From Treponema sp. (GTDB taxonomy: Bacteria > Spirochaetota > Spirochaetia > Treponematales > Breznakiellaceae), in contig JAIRKH010000089.1 of NCBI GenBank assembly GCA_031260245.1, positions 1 to 38,174 of the forward strand: a stretch of 38,174 nt of DNA, read 5' to 3'. Position 1 is the stretch's first letter. Every line of letters begins with the position of its first letter. The notes beneath the pieces were generated by a model. That model saw only the letters and a list, made by a program, of their open reading frames with translations. It was not told the DNA's origin and did no database searches. The position numbers and the translations under genes were made by a program. Of this stretch, positions 4,772 to 38,174 are shown one piece after another.

Positions 4772-5914
4772 GTGAATAACTTTATAAAATTTAGGAATAA
4801 TTTATACCTCATAGAATTATTCCTTCTATTGACAGCCTGTGTCGGCGCGCCGAAAGGCGGTGAAAAACCAAGGGGGTTCGTCAGTCCAGTTGAAAAATAT
4901 GGAAAAATCAGGATAGCGGAGGTAAACGGCAGGCGGCGGCTCTGCACGGAAAACGGCGACCCTGTCCAGCTAAAAGGCATGAGCACTATGGGACTGCAAT
5001 GGGAGAGTTGGATTTTAACCGAAGAGGCTTTCGACGCGCTCGCCTACGATTGGCGTTGCGATGTCGTTAGAATCGCCATGTACGTTACCGAAGGCGGTTA
5101 TAAAAACGACCCCTTCGGTATGCTCGCAAAGGTTGAAAAAGGTATAAAACTCGCATCTGACAGAGGATTATACGTGATAGTGGATTGGCACGTCTTGACG
5201 CCCGGAGACCCCAACGCCAATGATTACCTCAACGCGGGAAAGAGCCTCAGTCAGTATTCGGAAATCAGGAAAGATCATCCCGAATACGGCGGACCGGAGC
5301 TTTTCTTCGCTTACCTTTCCCAAAAATACGGTGATTTACCGAACATCCTTTGGGAAACCGCCAATGAGCCGAACAAATTAAGCAAGAATTGGTCCGAGTC
5401 GCTTTTGCCCTATCATCAAAAAATACTTAACGCCGTCAGGCTCTACGATAAAGATGGATTAGGCGACAATATCGTCATTTGCGGAACCGATAGTTGGAGT
5501 CAGGAAGTGGACGCTCCTATAGGAAACGAGGTGGCCGACCCAAAGAGACAAGTGATGTACACGGCGCACTTCTACGCGGGGACTCACGGGCAATGGCTTA
5601 TGGACAGAGTGAAAAAAGCGCTTGACGGCGGGCTTGCGGTGTTCTGCACAGAATGGGGAACGAGCGAGGCGGACGGCGGACAAAACGGCAAGGTCTATAT
5701 CGCGGAGAGCGAAAACTGGCTTGATTTTTTTGACGCAAACGGCGTTTCTTGGTGTAACTGGTCGTTGGCGCGGGCGGCGCAGTCTTCAGCCGCGTTTAAG
5801 CCCAACGCCGCGTCATTCCCCAAGGACCTGGACAAAGACGGCGTACCGAGTTGGAAAGATTCCGACCTTTCCGCAAGCGGACTATATGTGAGAGGAAAAA
5901 TCAGGGAGAAATGA
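4772..5914 (+). CDS. GH5 endoglucanase (cellulase), lipoprotein
   Basis: 380 residues. A short signal with lipobox LLTAC predicts lipidation at Cys23. The rest is one GH5 (subfamily 2-like) TIM barrel: LKGMSTMGLQW (68-78), VVRIAMYV (98-105), VIVDWHVL (135-142), acid/base E199 in WETANEP, HFYAGTHGQW (266-275) and nucleophile E294 in CTEWGTS. The family hydrolyses beta-1,4 bonds in cellulose, retaining configuration. There is no separate carbohydrate-binding module. The start is GTG at 4772, the first useful start after the EF-G gene, with GAGGAAG about 10 nt upstream inside that gene; the two are probably co-transcribed. An Asp-rich D-D-G motif near the C-terminus (FPKDLDKDGVP) resembles a calcium site. 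Confidence 0.9.
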   Translation: MNNFIKFRNNLYLIELFLLLTACVGAPKGGEKPRGFVSPVEKYGKIRIAEVNGRRRLCTENGDPVQLKGMSTMGLQWESWILTEEAFDALAYDWRCDVVRIAMYVTEGGYKNDPFGMLAKVEKGIKLASDRGLYVIVDWHVLTPGDPNANDYLNAGKSLSQYSEIRKDHPEYGGPELFFAYLSQKYGDLPNILWETANEPNKLSKNWSESLLPYHQKILNAVRLYDKDGLGDNIVICGTDSWSQEVDAPIGNEVADPKRQVMYTAHFYAGTHGQWLMDRVKKALDGGLAVFCTEWGTSEADGGQNGKVYIAESENWLDFFDANGVSWCNWSLARAAQSSAAFKPNAASFPKDLDKDGVPSWKDSDLSASGLYVRGKIREK

Positions 5915-7164
5915 AAAGTATGATTCAACAAACCCGAATGATTCCCAAGAAAACAGGAGCTTATTTCCCATATTGGCGCCTTTTGCTCGTTTCGCTACTT
6001 GGACTTGATGGTTGTATGACGATAGCGAATCCGCTCAAGGTCGAGCCGTCAACGAATATAGCCATGTCTTCAGAGGCTTTATGTCTTGCTTTTAGTCCAA
6101 ACAGTTCTATTCTTGCGGCCGGCTGTAATGACGGCTATGTGCGCGTTTGGAACGCGGACCACGGCGCCGCGGGATTGGCGAAATCAGCCCGCAGAGGCGC
6201 CGTCAACGCCTTGTCTTTCAGACCTGACGGGACAAGGCTGGCGTTTCAGACAAGGGAAAACCTCAAAGTGTGGGATGTAGAAACAGGCGCGGAACTTTTA
6301 GACGTCCACGGCAGAGGCGGTGAATTCATCGAGTCCATCGCCTACAACATAGACGGTTCTTTGCTTTTATCCGGCGTTTCCGCCTCTGAATACGACGACG
6401 ATATGCCGACTGACTCTGGCGATGTTTATCGCTCGGAAACAGACTTCTCTTATGTATACTATAACGCTCCGCAGAAAAAAGAAAAGGCGGCCGTCTCCGG
6501 CGTTCTGCGTCTATGGGATGCGGGTAGCGGCGCGGTCAAGCGGAATATCTATCTCTTCAATAAGACGGTAACGGTAAGTACATATCGCTCTTCATTAAAT
6601 GAATCAGACGACTCGTCCGGCGTTTTCTCAAACGACAACCTCTCTTCGGATACGGCGGCCGCGACTCTCTACGAAGGTTATAGCAGAATGGCGAATAAAG
6701 CCGTTTTCAGCCCGGACGGCGCGCGGATAGCCGCAAGTTTCAACAACGGAGACGTCAAAGTTTACGCCTTGAACGAGACTTTACTCGCGGAATTTCACAA
6801 TAGGTCAAAGGCGTCAGCTATTGTGTTCAGCCCGGACGGGAAACGCCTGGCGGTCGGTTTTGACAACGGCAACATCATCGTCTATAACATCGAGGAACGA
6901 AAAATGCGGCTTTTACAGCGGCATTATAAGAAAATAACCGCCCTCGTCTACAGTCCTGACGGGGCGTTTCTCGCGTCGGGATCGGCTGACGCGACCGTCC
7001 GATTCTGGAACGCGGACAAAGGCAAAGCAGAGATAGCGACCGTCCGCAATCACCGCAAGGCAATAACCGCTCTGACTTACGCGCCTGACGGTAAGCGTTT
7101 AGCTTCGGCTAGCGCTGATAAAACGGTGAAAATATGGGATATAGCCGCTCTTGGCTTACGATAA
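5911..7164 (+). CDS. WD40-repeat lipoprotein (seven-bladed propeller)
   Basis: About 417 residues. The ATG at 5911 overlaps the GH5 stop as ATGA; an alternative ATG at 5920 has better spacing (11 nt) from the AGGGAG at 5903-5908. A basic N-terminus and hydrophobic stretch end in LLGLDGC, a spirochaete-type lipobox. Seven WD40 repeats follow, each with a [F/Y]xPDG turn and a terminal [V/I]xVW-like strand: LAFSPNSS...VRVWN, LSFRPDG...LKVWD, IAYNIDG...LRLWD, VFSPDG...VKVYA, VFSPDG...IIVYN, VYSPDG...VRFWN, TYAPDG...VKIWD. This makes one closed propeller, a protein-interaction platform likely in the periplasm. A long insert with Ser/Asp-rich sequence sits inside the third blade and between blades three and four. 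No enzymatic motif. The partner is unknown; coupling to GH5 may be incidental. Confidence 0.85.
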   Translation: MKSMIQQTRMIPKKTGAYFPYWRLLLVSLLGLDGCMTIANPLKVEPSTNIAMSSEALCLAFSPNSSILAAGCNDGYVRVWNADHGAAGLAKSARRGAVNALSFRPDGTRLAFQTRENLKVWDVETGAELLDVHGRGGEFIESIAYNIDGSLLLSGVSASEYDDDMPTDSGDVYRSETDFSYVYYNAPQKKEKAAVSGVLRLWDAGSGAVKRNIYLFNKTVTVSTYRSSLNESDDSSGVFSNDNLSSDTAAATLYEGYSRMANKAVFSPDGARIAASFNNGDVKVYALNETLLAEFHNRSKASAIVFSPDGKRLAVGFDNGNIIVYNIEERKMRLLQRHYKKITALVYSPDGAFLASGSADATVRFWNADKGKAEIATVRNHRKAITALTYAPDGKRLASASADKTVKIWDIAALGLR

Positions 7165-26085: not shown

Positions 26086-26886
26086 CTATTGGTACACCCT
26101 CACGTAATCTACTTGCATCGTAGCGTCTTGTAATTTTGGGTCTATACCCTTTTCGCCGCCCCAGGTCCCGCCTATCGCCACGTTAAGAATGAGATAGAAG
26201 GGTATGTCAAAGGGCCATTCCGCAACTCCTTCGCCGGAGTTCTCAAAACGAAAAATGAGTTCGCCGTCGACATACCACTGGATCCATTGAGGCGTCCACT
26301 CTATGGCGTAGACGTGAAACGCGCTGGATACTCCTTTTACGACGGCGGAAGCGGACTTTTGGGTATTCAATCGGTGGTTAAAAGCCCTTGTATGCACGGT
26401 GGCGTGGATTCTATCCTGGTCAAACCCTACGTGTTCTATGACGTCTATCTCGCCAGAACGGGGCCATCCGCCGTATTTATCGCCGACCGGAAGCATCCAT
26501 ATCGCGGGCCAGGTTCCCCGTCCCTCGGGTAGCTTGGCGCGTACCTCAAGGTACCCATATTTCCACCCCGCCTTATACTGGGTTTTTAAACGAGCGCTAG
26601 TCCATCGTCCGTTATCGTTTCGGGCGGTAATGGACAGGATTCCCTTCCGAACTTCCGAATTTTCCCGTTTGTTCGTATAAGTTTGTAGTTCGGCGTTCCC
26701 CCAACCGTTCCCTCCGACGGAGTAATTCCACTTGTCCGAATCAGGCGCTCCGTCTTGGTCAAATTCATCGGACCAAACCAGAGTTTTTCCTTCAGGAACC
26801 GCGGAAACGTTTTTTCCCGTACAGGCCGGGAAAAACATCGTCATTATGACGGTAAGCGTCGTCATAAACGGAATTTGATACCTCAT
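26086..26886 (-). CDS. GH16 beta-glucanase (laminarinase-like), lipoprotein
   Basis: 266 residues. The signal ends in MFFPAC, a lipobox predicting lipidation at Cys22. A single GH16 jelly roll follows: LVWSDEFDQDGAPDSDKWNY (36-55), GNGWGNAELQTYTNK, YGYLEVRAKLPEGRGTWPAIWMLP, catalytic GEIDVIEHVG (nucleophile E146, D148, acid/base E151), ATVHT, YAIEWTPQWIQWYVDG and FYLILNVAIGGTWGG. The ExDxxE form (with Val between) and overall length point to endo-beta-1,3- or 1,3-1,4-glucanases acting on laminarin, callose or lichenan. AAGGAG lies before the ATG. It sits 43 bp downstream of the DUF5312-like gene. With the GH5 and GH5-GH30 proteins it forms a set of anchored polysaccharide hydrolases. Confidence 0.92.
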   Translation of the reverse strand: MRYQIPFMTTLTVIMTMFFPACTGKNVSAVPEGKTLVWSDEFDQDGAPDSDKWNYSVGGNGWGNAELQTYTNKRENSEVRKGILSITARNDNGRWTSARLKTQYKAGWKYGYLEVRAKLPEGRGTWPAIWMLPVGDKYGGWPRSGEIDVIEHVGFDQDRIHATVHTRAFNHRLNTQKSASAVVKGVSSAFHVYAIEWTPQWIQWYVDGELIFRFENSGEGVAEWPFDIPFYLILNVAIGGTWGGEKGIDPKLQDATMQVDYVRVYQ

Positions 26887-33284: not shown

Positions 33285-33331
33285 AAAGTTATATCTAAAC
33301 AGTAGGGAGAAATCCCAAAGGAGTTTTCAAA

Positions 33332-36300
33332 ATGAAAAACAGTCTTTCTTTACGTTTCTTTTTTATCTTTTCTATAACGCTGATAATGACGTCGGCGTTT
33401 ATGTCAGTTGCCGTAGGATGCGCCAATAACGGAGACGACCCGCCGAAACCAAACGACTCGCCCGCTATTGATGCGCCGGAAGCGATGACTTCGCAAAGCG
33501 CCAAAGTATTCCTTGACGCTTTGTTTACTGACGCGGGAAATACCGCGGGGTGGAACATGGGCAATACCTTCGACGCTCACGTCAACGGCGTTTCAGGCGA
33601 AACCAAGTGGGGCAACCCCGCGGTTACACAGGCGCTCGTAGAAGGCGTGAAAAACGCGGGTTTCAAAGTCATCCGCATCCCCATAACGTGGATGGGACAG
33701 TTCGGCGCCGCGCCGAATTACGCGATAAAAGCCGCGTGGCTTGCCAGAATCGCGGAAGTCGTAGGCTGGGCGCGCGAGAAAGACTTGAAGGTTATCATCA
33801 ACATACACCACGACGACAACCTCGAATCAGGATGGCTGAATGTCGAGGACGCGGTATCGAACCCCGCGAAGAAAGCGGAGATAACCGCGCAATTCACCGC
33901 CTTGTGGAAGCAAATAGCCGCGTATTTCAAAAACCACGGCGATTATCTGATTTTCGAGGGCATGAATGAAATACACGACAAGTCCTGGGGATGGACGAAC
34001 CCGGAAAAATACCGCCCCGTCGTAAACGAATGGAACGCCGCTTTCGTGAAAACGGTCAGGGAAACCGGCGGCAACAACGCGTCCCGCTACCTCGTGATAC
34101 CGGGTTTTTGCCAAAACCCCCAACAGATACTCGACGACGGCTTTACCATACCTAACGACGTTCAAAACAACAGCCGCCTGATTGTCAGTTTCCATTACTA
34201 CGAGCCTTACAATTTTACCCTTAAAGCCTCAACACAAGAATGGGAAGACGTGAAAGCGTCGACAGAAGCTACGTTTAACGCGGTCAAAGCGAAATTCGCG
34301 GATGGGCGCGACATACCGGTAATCATCGGCGAATACGGGGCGAGTCAGCAGGATGGCAATTCGGTCATTAGACAGGAATATATGAAGTATATGACGGAAA
34401 CAGCGAACAAGTACGGCTTTATTCCTATCGTCTGGGACAACGGCGTAACAACGCCGGGCGCGGAATCGCACGGCTACCTCAATAGGCAAAACGGCGAGCC
34501 GAATTCTTTCGCAGCTTCGGTCGTAGCGGCTATCATACAGGGAACCATCGAGGGAGCGCAGGACGACCCAGAAGACGAAGAGACTACAGAGGGCGAAGAG
34601 ACTGACGTTAATATGGATGTGAGCGCTTTTTCTGTGGAGAATGGCGTAACAAAGACGACTCTTTTAGCATACGAGGGCAAATCCAACGTTACGAAACTGA
34701 CGCTTTCCGGGACGGATCCCTGGGCCGCGCTCACCTACGCTTTGGAAGCCCATAAGGGAGAAACCATAGAGGTTTCATTCTCCATGAACGTCTGGCTTGA
34801 CAAGTCCGCGAAGGTCAACTGGCAAGTAAATTTCAACGATTATCAGACCATAGCGTTCGCGGACGCGCCCGCGGGTCAATGGGTTTCCGTGAGCGTGGAA
34901 GATGTAGAAGTTTCCGTACCGACAGACGCTGAAAATCCGACGCTCTATCTTTCAAACCATAGTACCTACGGTTTGAACGGCGCGGTCGTTTACATCGCGG
35001 ACTTTTCGTTCTCCATAAAAACGGAAGAAACCGAAACGCCCACTCCTTCGGGTAATCTCTGGCGCAGTACCGCTTATACGGACACGCCGCTCGGAACGCA
35101 ACCGTCATACGCCAACGGGAACGGGACTATGCAGATAGATTACGCCGCGGAACGGCAGACCATAGACGGGTTTGGCGGCTCCGACGCTTGGAAATCAAAC
35201 CCGTCCGGGACTACATTCACGACGCTCGTAACGAAACTCTACTCGAAGACCGACGGCATAGGCTTCTCGATATTGAGGAACCGCGTCCCGTTCAGGGAAC
35301 GGTTAAGCGGGGACCAGTCCGCGAACGGCGAAAGCTACGACGCGAACGACGGCTTTATTGTCCGAAACGCGGATAATACCTATAAGACGACTACCGCCTC
35401 CAATGGGACGAAGACCTTCTCCCTCAACTGGAATAGTTGGGATATTGCCGCGACCAAGGCGCTCATCGCCAAGATAAAATCTCTTGCGGACGGGCCCGAG
35501 GACGGTCTCAAGATAATCAGTACGCCGTGGACCCCGCCTAACAACAGCGTTACGCGGTGGAAGCAGGGCGGCGTGTACAGCGGCTCCGGCGGGAAATTAA
35601 GCTACATCGGCGGAAAAGACAATACGAGCGACGATTATCATAAACCGGATGTAGGCGGTTCGCTCAAGCCGGAGTTTTACAACGACTACGCGGACCTCCT
35701 CGCGGATTATACGCTCGGTTTTCAGACGAACATGGGGCATCCGCTTACCCTGCTTTCTGTGCAGAACGAGCCTGATACGATGACCGACTACGAAAGCTGT
35801 ATCTGGGATGGGACGAGCATCAAGAATTTTGCTATTGTTCTGGGCAACCGTTTCGCGCTGAAGAACGCGCCGACAAGCATAGGTATCGTCGCCGCGGAAC
35901 AAGAGAACTTCAAGGAAGAGTTGGTTGAAGCCGCGCTGTCCGACGCTGACGCCAGAACGGTGATTACCCACGTCGGAGCGCACCAATACGAAGCGCCCTG
36001 GGATTCACAGCGTTACGGCGCGGAGTCCTTTCCAAACGCCGCGGCTCTAGGCAAACGCATCTGGCAGACTGAGATGGGACAGACCACCGCGGGAAACGGC
36101 GTCTTGTCCACTGGGAAGGACATTGAAAACGCCCTGGCCTACGCCCGAATGATTCACCACTGCTTCACCGTTACCTCCGCGAACGCGTGGCTCTACTGGT
36201 GGATGTGGCAGGTTGACAACCCGAATTCAGACGCGCTTGTCTATATTGACAATGAGGTTTTCAGCTACGCGAAACGCTATTACGCGGTCGGCGCCTTCAG

Positions 36301-36598
36301 CAAGTTCATTCGTCCGGGCTACAAGCGCGTAGGTTCAAGCGACTCGCCGTTGACCGACGTCTACGCGAGCGCGTATATGAGCGCGGACAAAAACAAGGCG
36401 GTACTTGTGTTAATCAACCACGGCGATTCCCAAAAGACCGTCTCGTTTGACCAAATCGGCGGGACCGCCGTATGGACGGGCGCGTACCGCGTATCTGCAA
36501 CCGAAGACCTCGCGTCGCTCGCGGTCAACAACGTCGTGAGTGGTACGATGGTAACGCTTCCGTCAATGTCAATCACGACGTTGACGGGCGATTTGTAG
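33332..36598 (+). CDS. Two-enzyme lipoprotein: GH5 endoglucanase, carbohydrate-binding-like module, GH30 xylanase
   Basis: 1088 residues. Signal peptide with lipobox VAVGC (lipidation at Cys30), a short Pro/Asp linker, then three domains. (1) GH5, subfamily 4-like, about 55-405: GWNMGNTFDAH, VIRIPITW, NIHHDD, acid/base E213 in FEGMNEIHD, HYYEPYNF, nucleophile E334 in IIGEYGAS, VWDNG. This predicts endo-beta-1,4-glucanase, xyloglucanase or xylanase action. (2) An acidic linker (408-427), then a beta-sandwich resembling CBM4/9/22 modules (about 428-563). (3) After a Thr/Pro linker (563-576), GH30, about 597-1088: IDGFGGSDAW, acid/base E813 in SVQNEPD, nucleophile E914 in IWQTEMGQT, then the side beta-domain; the family includes glucuronoxylanases. 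AAAGGAG precedes the ATG. The two catalytic modules predict combined attack on cellulose-xylan composites while anchored at the cell surface or in the periplasm. Confidence 0.92.
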   Translation: MKNSLSLRFFFIFSITLIMTSAFMSVAVGCANNGDDPPKPNDSPAIDAPEAMTSQSAKVFLDALFTDAGNTAGWNMGNTFDAHVNGVSGETKWGNPAVTQALVEGVKNAGFKVIRIPITWMGQFGAAPNYAIKAAWLARIAEVVGWAREKDLKVIINIHHDDNLESGWLNVEDAVSNPAKKAEITAQFTALWKQIAAYFKNHGDYLIFEGMNEIHDKSWGWTNPEKYRPVVNEWNAAFVKTVRETGGNNASRYLVIPGFCQNPQQILDDGFTIPNDVQNNSRLIVSFHYYEPYNFTLKASTQEWEDVKASTEATFNAVKAKFADGRDIPVIIGEYGASQQDGNSVIRQEYMKYMTETANKYGFIPIVWDNGVTTPGAESHGYLNRQNGEPNSFAASVVAAIIQGTIEGAQDDPEDEETTEGEETDVNMDVSAFSVENGVTKTTLLAYEGKSNVTKLTLSGTDPWAALTYALEAHKGETIEVSFSMNVWLDKSAKVNWQVNFNDYQTIAFADAPAGQWVSVSVEDVEVSVPTDAENPTLYLSNHSTYGLNGAVVYIADFSFSIKTEETETPTPSGNLWRSTAYTDTPLGTQPSYANGNGTMQIDYAAERQTIDGFGGSDAWKSNPSGTTFTTLVTKLYSKTDGIGFSILRNRVPFRERLSGDQSANGESYDANDGFIVRNADNTYKTTTASNGTKTFSLNWNSWDIAATKALIAKIKSLADGPEDGLKIISTPWTPPNNSVTRWKQGGVYSGSGGKLSYIGGKDNTSDDYHKPDVGGSLKPEFYNDYADLLADYTLGFQTNMGHPLTLLSVQNEPDTMTDYESCIWDGTSIKNFAIVLGNRFALKNAPTSIGIVAAEQENFKEELVEAALSDADARTVITHVGAHQYEAPWDSQRYGAESFPNAAALGKRIWQTEMGQTTAGNGVLSTGKDIENALAYARMIHHCFTVTSANAWLYWWMWQVDNPNSDALVYIDNEVFSYAKRYYAVGAFSKFIRPGYKRVGSSDSPLTDVYASAYMSADKNKAVLVLINHGDSQKTVSFDQIGGTAVWTGAYRVSATEDLASLAVNNVVSGTMVTLPSMSITTLTGDL

Positions 36599-37799: not shown

Positions 37800-37827
37800 A
37801 TTATAATGCTTTTCATGTATTTGTCAA
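37800..37827 (-). promoter_or_regulatory. Consensus promoter overlapping the transposase stop codon
   Basis: Minus strand TTGACA (37822-37827), 16-bp spacer, TATAAT (37800-37805), both perfect. The TGA within TTGACA is the transposase stop. It probably drives the radical-SAM gene at 36787-37632. Confidence 0.65.
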
Positions 37828-38174
37828 GGCATGGGTGTCAGATACTCGTCGCCGAGAATAGGTTCGTCTAATAAGTCGGATTGCCGATGCAACCGGTGGT
37901 ATAGACTCCCAAACGCCCACTCCGCCGCCCGCTCCACAAGCCCAGCCTTCACAGGATTCTCCGCAATGTACTCCCGCGTCCGCAGAAAGTCCTCTATCCC
38001 TCCGATTATCCGTGAATAGAAGCGTTCCCCCCACACGTGTCCCTTCCGCCCGTGCGCCTTGTTCCACGCCTTCGCGAAATTACACTTTATCCATTGCATT
38101 ATCTCCGATAGACTAGCGTCTTTACCCGGTTTTATCAGGAAATGAATATGGTTTCCCATGATACAGAAATCCCA
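37824..38174 (-). CDS. REP-associated / IS200-type (Y1) transposase, 5' part outside the window
   Basis: The C-terminal 116 residues of a Y1 transposase, open at the window edge. The HUH metal motif is NHIHF in FCIMGNHIHFLIKPGKD; the catalytic Tyr is most likely in TREYIAENPVKAGLV, the usual YIxxNPxKAGL motif. The segment MQWIKCNFAKAWNKAHGRKGHVWGERFYSRII is the family's R-[Y/F]-x-W-N...G-H-x-W-[Q/G]-x-R-[Y/F] block. These single-strand transposases are often single-copy and act on REP palindromes. The final codons (EYLTPMP, stop) are written by a GGTGTCAGATAC motif, a degenerate copy of the palindromes elsewhere in the window. The C-terminus ends cleanly, so the protein appears intact as far as seen. 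Confidence 0.85.
   Translation of the reverse strand, partial: WDFCIMGNHIHFLIKPGKDASLSEIMQWIKCNFAKAWNKAHGRKGHVWGERFYSRIIGGIEDFLRTREYIAENPVKAGLVERAAEWAFGSLYHRLHRQSDLLDEPILGDEYLTPMP
37834..37845. repeat. Degenerate REP-like motif at the transposase 3' end
   Basis: GGTGTCAGATAC differs by one base from the GGTGTCAGACAC at 23249 and lies inside the last codons of the transposase gene. Confidence 0.6.

Follow-up and report, generated by a model that had tools for sequence, protein, structure and literature searches.

AcXbh30A (Clocl_1795; structure 7n6h), a cellulosomal xylobiohydrolase, is the founder of subfamily 10 of glycoside hydrolase family 30 (GH30_10). Members of the GH30_10 clade share at least 46% identity (PMC8453022). 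Enzymes of GH5 subfamily 4 (GH5_4), to which 6MQ4, 3NDY and 2JEQ have been assigned (PMC10485095, PMC3526467), show the activities EC 3.2.1.4, 3.2.1.151 and 3.2.1.73, with EC 3.2.1.8 as a side activity (PMC3526467), and a set of conserved cleft aromatics has been listed for them (PMC10485095). Breznakiellaceae is the main spirochaete family of the termite gut (PMC13067680, PMC11481507), and in wood-feeding higher termites spirochaetes are major hemicellulose degraders (PMC11481507).

A Treponema contig of 38,174 nucleotides (the window, meaning the whole stretch of DNA analysed) carries a gene whose product combines a GH5 domain, a CBM22-like module and a GH30 domain in one chain (Table 1). 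We consider it likely, with a probability of roughly 0.65, that this product is a cell-envelope lipoprotein composed of a GH5_4-type glucanase, a xylan-holding module and a glucuronate-independent GH30 xylanase, derived from lipoproteins that became joined. The gene is a single intact frame that begins with ATG and contains no N bases, and neither it nor its domains, catalytic residues and lipobox are due to chance. The lipobox, VAVGC with Cys30, was read by eye and is preceded by a basic n-region and a hydrophobic stretch. Alanine at -3 is atypical for a classical lipobox and is tolerated in spirochaetal lipoboxes, and the homologous GH30 proteins of relatives have clearer N-terminal lipoboxes (SPAC, LSAC and TAC). 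VAVGC is a plausible spirochaetal lipobox, and the membrane anchoring that the earlier note had proposed is plausible as well. The source assembly comprises 2.34 Mb in 124 contigs; its closest named relatives, as judged by the fusion protein, are metagenome-assembled genomes (MAGs) of Treponema, and the isolate codes of these related MAGs suggest termite hosts, so that the family is very likely Breznakiellaceae.

Table 1. Coordinates of the fusion gene and of the features within and just ahead of it (residue numbers refer to the encoded protein).
Feature	Position	Strand	Basis and remarks
Ribosome-binding site AAGGAG	33318..33323	+	sequence; 8 bases ahead of ATG
Entire ORF, 1088-aa predicted lipoprotein, GH5 - CBM22-like - GH30	33332..36598	+	
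Signal peptide, lipobox VAVGC, Cys30 expected to be lipidated	33332..33421	+	sequence
GH5 catalytic domain, subfamily-4 type, residues 59-405, E213 and E334	33506..34546	+	
Acidic linker (EGAQDDPEDEETTEGEETDVN)	34547..34609	+	sequence; after GH5, before beta-sandwich
CBM22-fold beta-sandwich, residues 427-565	34610..35026	+	model, alignments
GH30 catalytic domain and C-terminal beta-sandwich, residues 595-1088, E813 and E914	35114..36595	+	
Long GH30 beta2-alpha2 segment	35285..35437	+	alignment
Second GH30 insert, after TPWTPP motif	35549..35659	+	alignment

Two complete glycoside hydrolase domains with four catalytic glutamates had been recognised in the earlier note, and all four residues are present. 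The GH5 domain matches the Pfam Cellulase/GH5 family over residues 83-371 (E 2.5e-58), and its catalytic pair (beta4 and beta7) lies in the motifs MNEI (E213) and IIGEYG (E334). Among solved structures, the best matches belong to GH5_4, namely 6wqy (E 5e-78), 6mq4, EngD (3ndy) and the xyloglucanase PpXG5 (2jep), which have in common with the window domain the full catalytic domain, the glutamate pair and the conserved aromatic cleft (W93, W221, Y290, Y293 and W368 in the window protein, located by eye from local motifs); unlike them, the window GH5 is part of a two-enzyme lipoprotein. Standalone GH5 relatives, 43-49% identical to it, occur throughout the family. Judged by its sequence, the domain fits subfamily 4, as had been assigned before, and would be a broad beta-1,4-glucanase/xyloglucanase. 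Crystalline cellulose is an unlikely target, because GH5_4 acts mainly on soluble or amorphous beta-glucan and xyloglucan and because the sole CBM-like module in the chain resembles a xylan binder.

The GH30 domain has the traits of its family, including a TIM barrel, a beta-sandwich at the C-terminal side and the QNEP and TE motifs (E813 in QNEP and E914 in QTEMG), and Pfam matches cover both GH30 (PF14587, residues 776-971, E 7.7e-8) and the GH30 C-terminal sandwich (residues 998-1084, E 1.2e-4). By sequence, profile and model, its nearest solved enzyme is AcXbh30A, in agreement with its earlier placement in the xylanase group; the model, of moderate confidence (mean pLDDT 75), aligns to AcXbh30A with Z 37.1 over 412 residues, with 1nof tied at 36.5. 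The two proteins share the GH30 group-2 fold, the glutamate pair, an extended beta2-alpha2 segment and the lack of a glucuronate-reading arginine, but the window domain is ~31% identical to AcXbh30A over the domain, has longer inserts and, whereas AcXbh30A is without a GH5, is tied to one in a lipoprotein. The beta2-alpha2 region (window residues 645-740) spans 96 residues, compared with 69 in AcXbh30A and 44-51 in GH30_8 enzymes, and the insert after TPWTPP spans 45, compared with 17-21 in the enzymes aligned. These two inserts appear to enlarge the active-site face relative to GH30_8 and GH30_10; because they fall partly below pLDDT 50 in the model, any influence on the glycone subsites is only predicted. 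Since the beta2-alpha2 loop of fungal GH30_7 enzymes contributes to specificity (PMC8347883), it seems reasonable to guess, by analogy, at a restricted and exo-like cleft.

In two maximum-likelihood trees, the window GH30 falls into a nine-member spirochaete clade (support 100/100) whose sister is a GH30-GH43 protein encoded in a Paenibacillus-family genome (99/97 and 96/96), and this pair adjoins GH30_10 plus its neighbour clade (91/88 in the second tree). Membership in GH30_10 itself was rejected, the spirochaete clade being separate and the ~31% identity lying below the 46% found among GH30_10 members. The likely sequence of Clocl_2746 (AcXyn30B, GH30_12) lies apart from the window clade, at the end of a very long branch. 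The nearest outside relative of the GH30 domain is a GH30-GH43-cohesin-like-dockerin protein (L166, 1243-5691, minus strand), whose gene adjoins another open reading frame with GH43-like and dockerin-like parts.

The GH30_8 enzymes form a clade of their own (support 99-100%) that does not contain the window domain, and membership in that subfamily was rejected. If the protein were a cellulase joined to a glucuronoxylan-specific GH30_8 xylanase, it would make sense that, of the named family models, XynC fits the domain best (NCBIfam, E 3e-33) and that GH30_8 structures align to it almost as well as AcXbh30A does (Z 36.5 vs 37.1), but the XynC score of 116 is under the equivalog cut-off of 650, the domain lies outside the clade, and the arginine that reads glucuronate in EcXynA and CtXyn30A (beta8-alpha8, WWYIRRSYG) is absent, the window sequence being WWMWQVDN with no arginine in residues 955-975, although some non-specific GH30_8 enzymes also lack it. 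We regard this reading as improbable. Because the arginine is missing and the domain lies outside GH30_8, glucuronoxylan is unsupported as the GH30 target; of the cleavage of cellulose and glucuronoxylan predicted in the earlier note, beta-glucan and xylan stand as well-supported predicted substrates, whereas glucuronoxylan specificity is unsupported and crystalline cellulose unlikely. The prediction for GH30 should be worded as xylan cleavage that does not depend on glucuronate, exo or endo.

Whether the cleavage is exo or endo bears on a second alternative, in which GH30 is a non-specific endoxylanase, not an exo-acting xylobiohydrolase, and the rest of the protein is as we propose. A member of the GH30_10 neighbour clade is reported to act as an endoxylanase and to lack xylobiohydrolase activity (PMC8453022), and non-specific GH30 xylanases likewise lack the arginine (PMC11058611); on the other hand, the long beta2-alpha2 segment is like that of GH30_7 and GH30_10 exo enzymes, and relatives already have GH10 endoxylanases adjoining the gene. 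An endo mode is quite possible on this evidence, if somewhat short of even odds.

A beta-sandwich between the two enzymes had also been noted before, and residues 427-565 are all beta in the AlphaFold model (pLDDT 92.8). The module matched no Pfam family above the cut-off (CBM_4_9 included) and nothing convincing in the PDB by sequence or profile. When its model was searched with VIA-align, CBM22 chains occupied ranks 1-8 (Z 12.4-11.1; best match Z 12.4, rmsd 3.2, 132 residues aligned), followed by a non-CBM22 row at Z 10.2 and CBM36 at Z 9.9; Foldseek likewise placed CBM22 on top, and hhalign of the module profile against CBM22 gave 17%, a weak sequence link. With residue numbers fixed through an alignment between 1dyo and an ordinary CBM22 that the same genome encodes, we matched W53, Y103 and W116 of C. 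thermocellum CBM22-2 to W464, Y504 and W517 of the module, and E138 to S541 (a correspondence read by hand and backed by an hhalign block). W53, Y103 and E138 are residues that we take to be important for xylan binding by CBM22, and each of the seven module copies used retains the equivalents of the platform residues W53 and Y103. Compared with CBM22 proper (CBM22-2 of C. thermocellum Xyn10B, 1dyo; P. barcinonensis Xyn10C), the module is alike in predicted fold, in W53/Y103/W116 and in the company of GH10, but differs in its ~14% identity, the lack of a Pfam match and the serine at the E138 position.

The module was found in 10 of 393 spirochaete genomes, mostly on GH10 xylanases (assigned by sequence motifs), to which it is N-terminal in eight loci, these belonging to spirochaetes of rumen type and termite type; at another locus it stands ahead of an esterase-like protein. 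The genome G039 (one contig of 3,855,671 bases, same family), presumably T. azotonutricium ZAS-9, holds seven copies in one cluster, on GH10, GH30 and Ig-like proteins, and there too the module precedes GH10. A 1768-aa spirochaete open reading frame (L055, 268-3426) has in the part read the module and further stretches that look sandwich-like, and lacks an obvious catalytic domain there. Since the carriers are mainly GH10, and also GH30 and esterase-like proteins, the module is linked to xylan enzymes, and in the fusion chain it probably goes with GH30. Its CBM22-like fold and platform residues suggest that it binds xylan. Because the window's own genome also encodes two ordinary CBM22-GH10 xylanases, two kinds of CBM22-fold module coexist there.

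In relatives, GH5 and GH30 are separate proteins. The same-genus standalone GH30 lipoproteins (three loci) have a GH30 that is 65-68% identical to that of the window, but they lack GH5 and the module and lie elsewhere, after a solute-binding-protein gene; the corresponding locus in the window's genome contains no GH30. The module-GH30 lipoprotein of G039 (L051, 7857-10826, minus strand) resembles the window protein in its lipobox and in having the module directly before a GH30 (~50% identical), but has an Ig-like repeat N-terminus where the window has GH5, and sits in a GH10 cluster. Its acid/base motif is QNES, not QNEP, with the glutamate retained. Xylanase genes often accompany GH30 in relatives: GH30 lies among GH10 genes in G039 (L051, 1-19901), where large lipoproteins carry repeated CBM22-fold modules, Ig-like repeats, GH10 and GH30, and in three further loci a GH10 gene immediately precedes the GH30 gene, one of them having another after it. 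Elsewhere a polysaccharide deacetylase lies ahead of GH30.

The fusion gene stands alone in the window, flanked by a lolA-like gene in divergent orientation and a radical-SAM gene in convergent orientation. The lolA-HTH pair is conserved in congeners, where the content upstream of lolA varies even at ~92% LolA identity and the stretches read contain neither GH5 nor GH30, and an IS200-like Y1 transposase gene (37824-38159, minus strand) lies at the contig end, 1.2 kb downstream of the fusion gene. Because the content upstream of lolA differs, the standalone GH30 locus has no GH30 and a transposase is nearby, the gene occupies a variable site. The window also contains a second GH5 gene (4772-5914, plus strand), which starts 6 bases past an EF-G-like stop and overlaps a WD40-repeat frame (5851-7164), and a gene of the beta-glucanase family GH16 (26086-26886, minus strand) ~6.5 kb upstream of the fusion.

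The architecture had been called unusual, and the searches bear this out: the order is not common, and no other copy was found in the genomes searched. Among 199 relatives there was no second GH5-GH30 frame, the largest other GH30 frame being a 1029-aa module-GH30 protein, and a domain-by-domain check confined to the loci fetched out of 391 Clostridia-class and 150 Paenibacillus-family genomes revealed none (119 GH30 frames, of which only copies of the window gene carry GH5). Among 72,556 plasmids there were separate GH5 or GH30 matches only, none covering >80% of the query, and a viral collection gave no match. Seven long GH30 frames of other genomes carried GH43, AbfB, CBM, dockerin, fn3 or SLH in Pfam and no GH5, and a full-text literature search for "GH5-GH30" found no paper. 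The result applies to these sets of genomes, plasmids and viruses. Each part of the protein is known in kind, and what is new is the arrangement of GH5, module and GH30 in the genomes searched. That the fusion occurs in one genome only, and is missing at the same locus in 11 congeners where readable, would also be expected of an assembly artefact in a metagenome-assembled genome; against this, the frame is uninterrupted, with a natural acidic linker and no N bases, and the one-contig G039 shows the same CBM-GH30 order. We judge an artefact to be very improbable and the gene to have arisen, probably, when domains were recently fused in a single species.

Our data are most consistent with two plant-cell-wall hydrolases that share one membrane anchor and would be exposed at the cell surface. 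The membrane-proximal GH5 would make internal beta-1,4 cuts in soluble or amorphous beta-glucans, namely xyloglucan, mixed-linkage glucan and CMC-like cellulose; the CBM22-fold module would keep the protein on xylan; and the distal GH30 would cut xylan with no methylglucuronic acid side group required, its long loops tipping the odds slightly towards exo or end-restricted attack with release of xylobiose, rather than an endo mode. Short products would be imported by the same cell, the linkage may be of benefit, and the cleavage by the two domains, described earlier as coupled, may be so. The protein would have originated when a GH5 lipoprotein was joined to a CBM-GH30 lipoprotein. More tentatively, the spirochaete GH30 clade may be an undescribed subfamily that cleaves xylan in a way of its own, and the module may found a new xylan-binding CBM family across spirochaete GH10, GH30 and esterase-like proteins, with the fusion as the one known case that ties both to GH5_4.

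To our knowledge, few enzymes of these hemicellulose-degrading spirochaetes have been characterised. The locus offers three objects, namely a GH30 clade beside xylobiohydrolases, a non-Pfam module that accompanies xylanases and a natural glucanase-xylanase chimera. The fusion could reveal whether tethered activities help on wood, in which cellulose and xyloglucan have a coat of xylan. Of more lasting value are the uncharacterised GH30 clade and the module of CBM22 fold that Pfam lacks.
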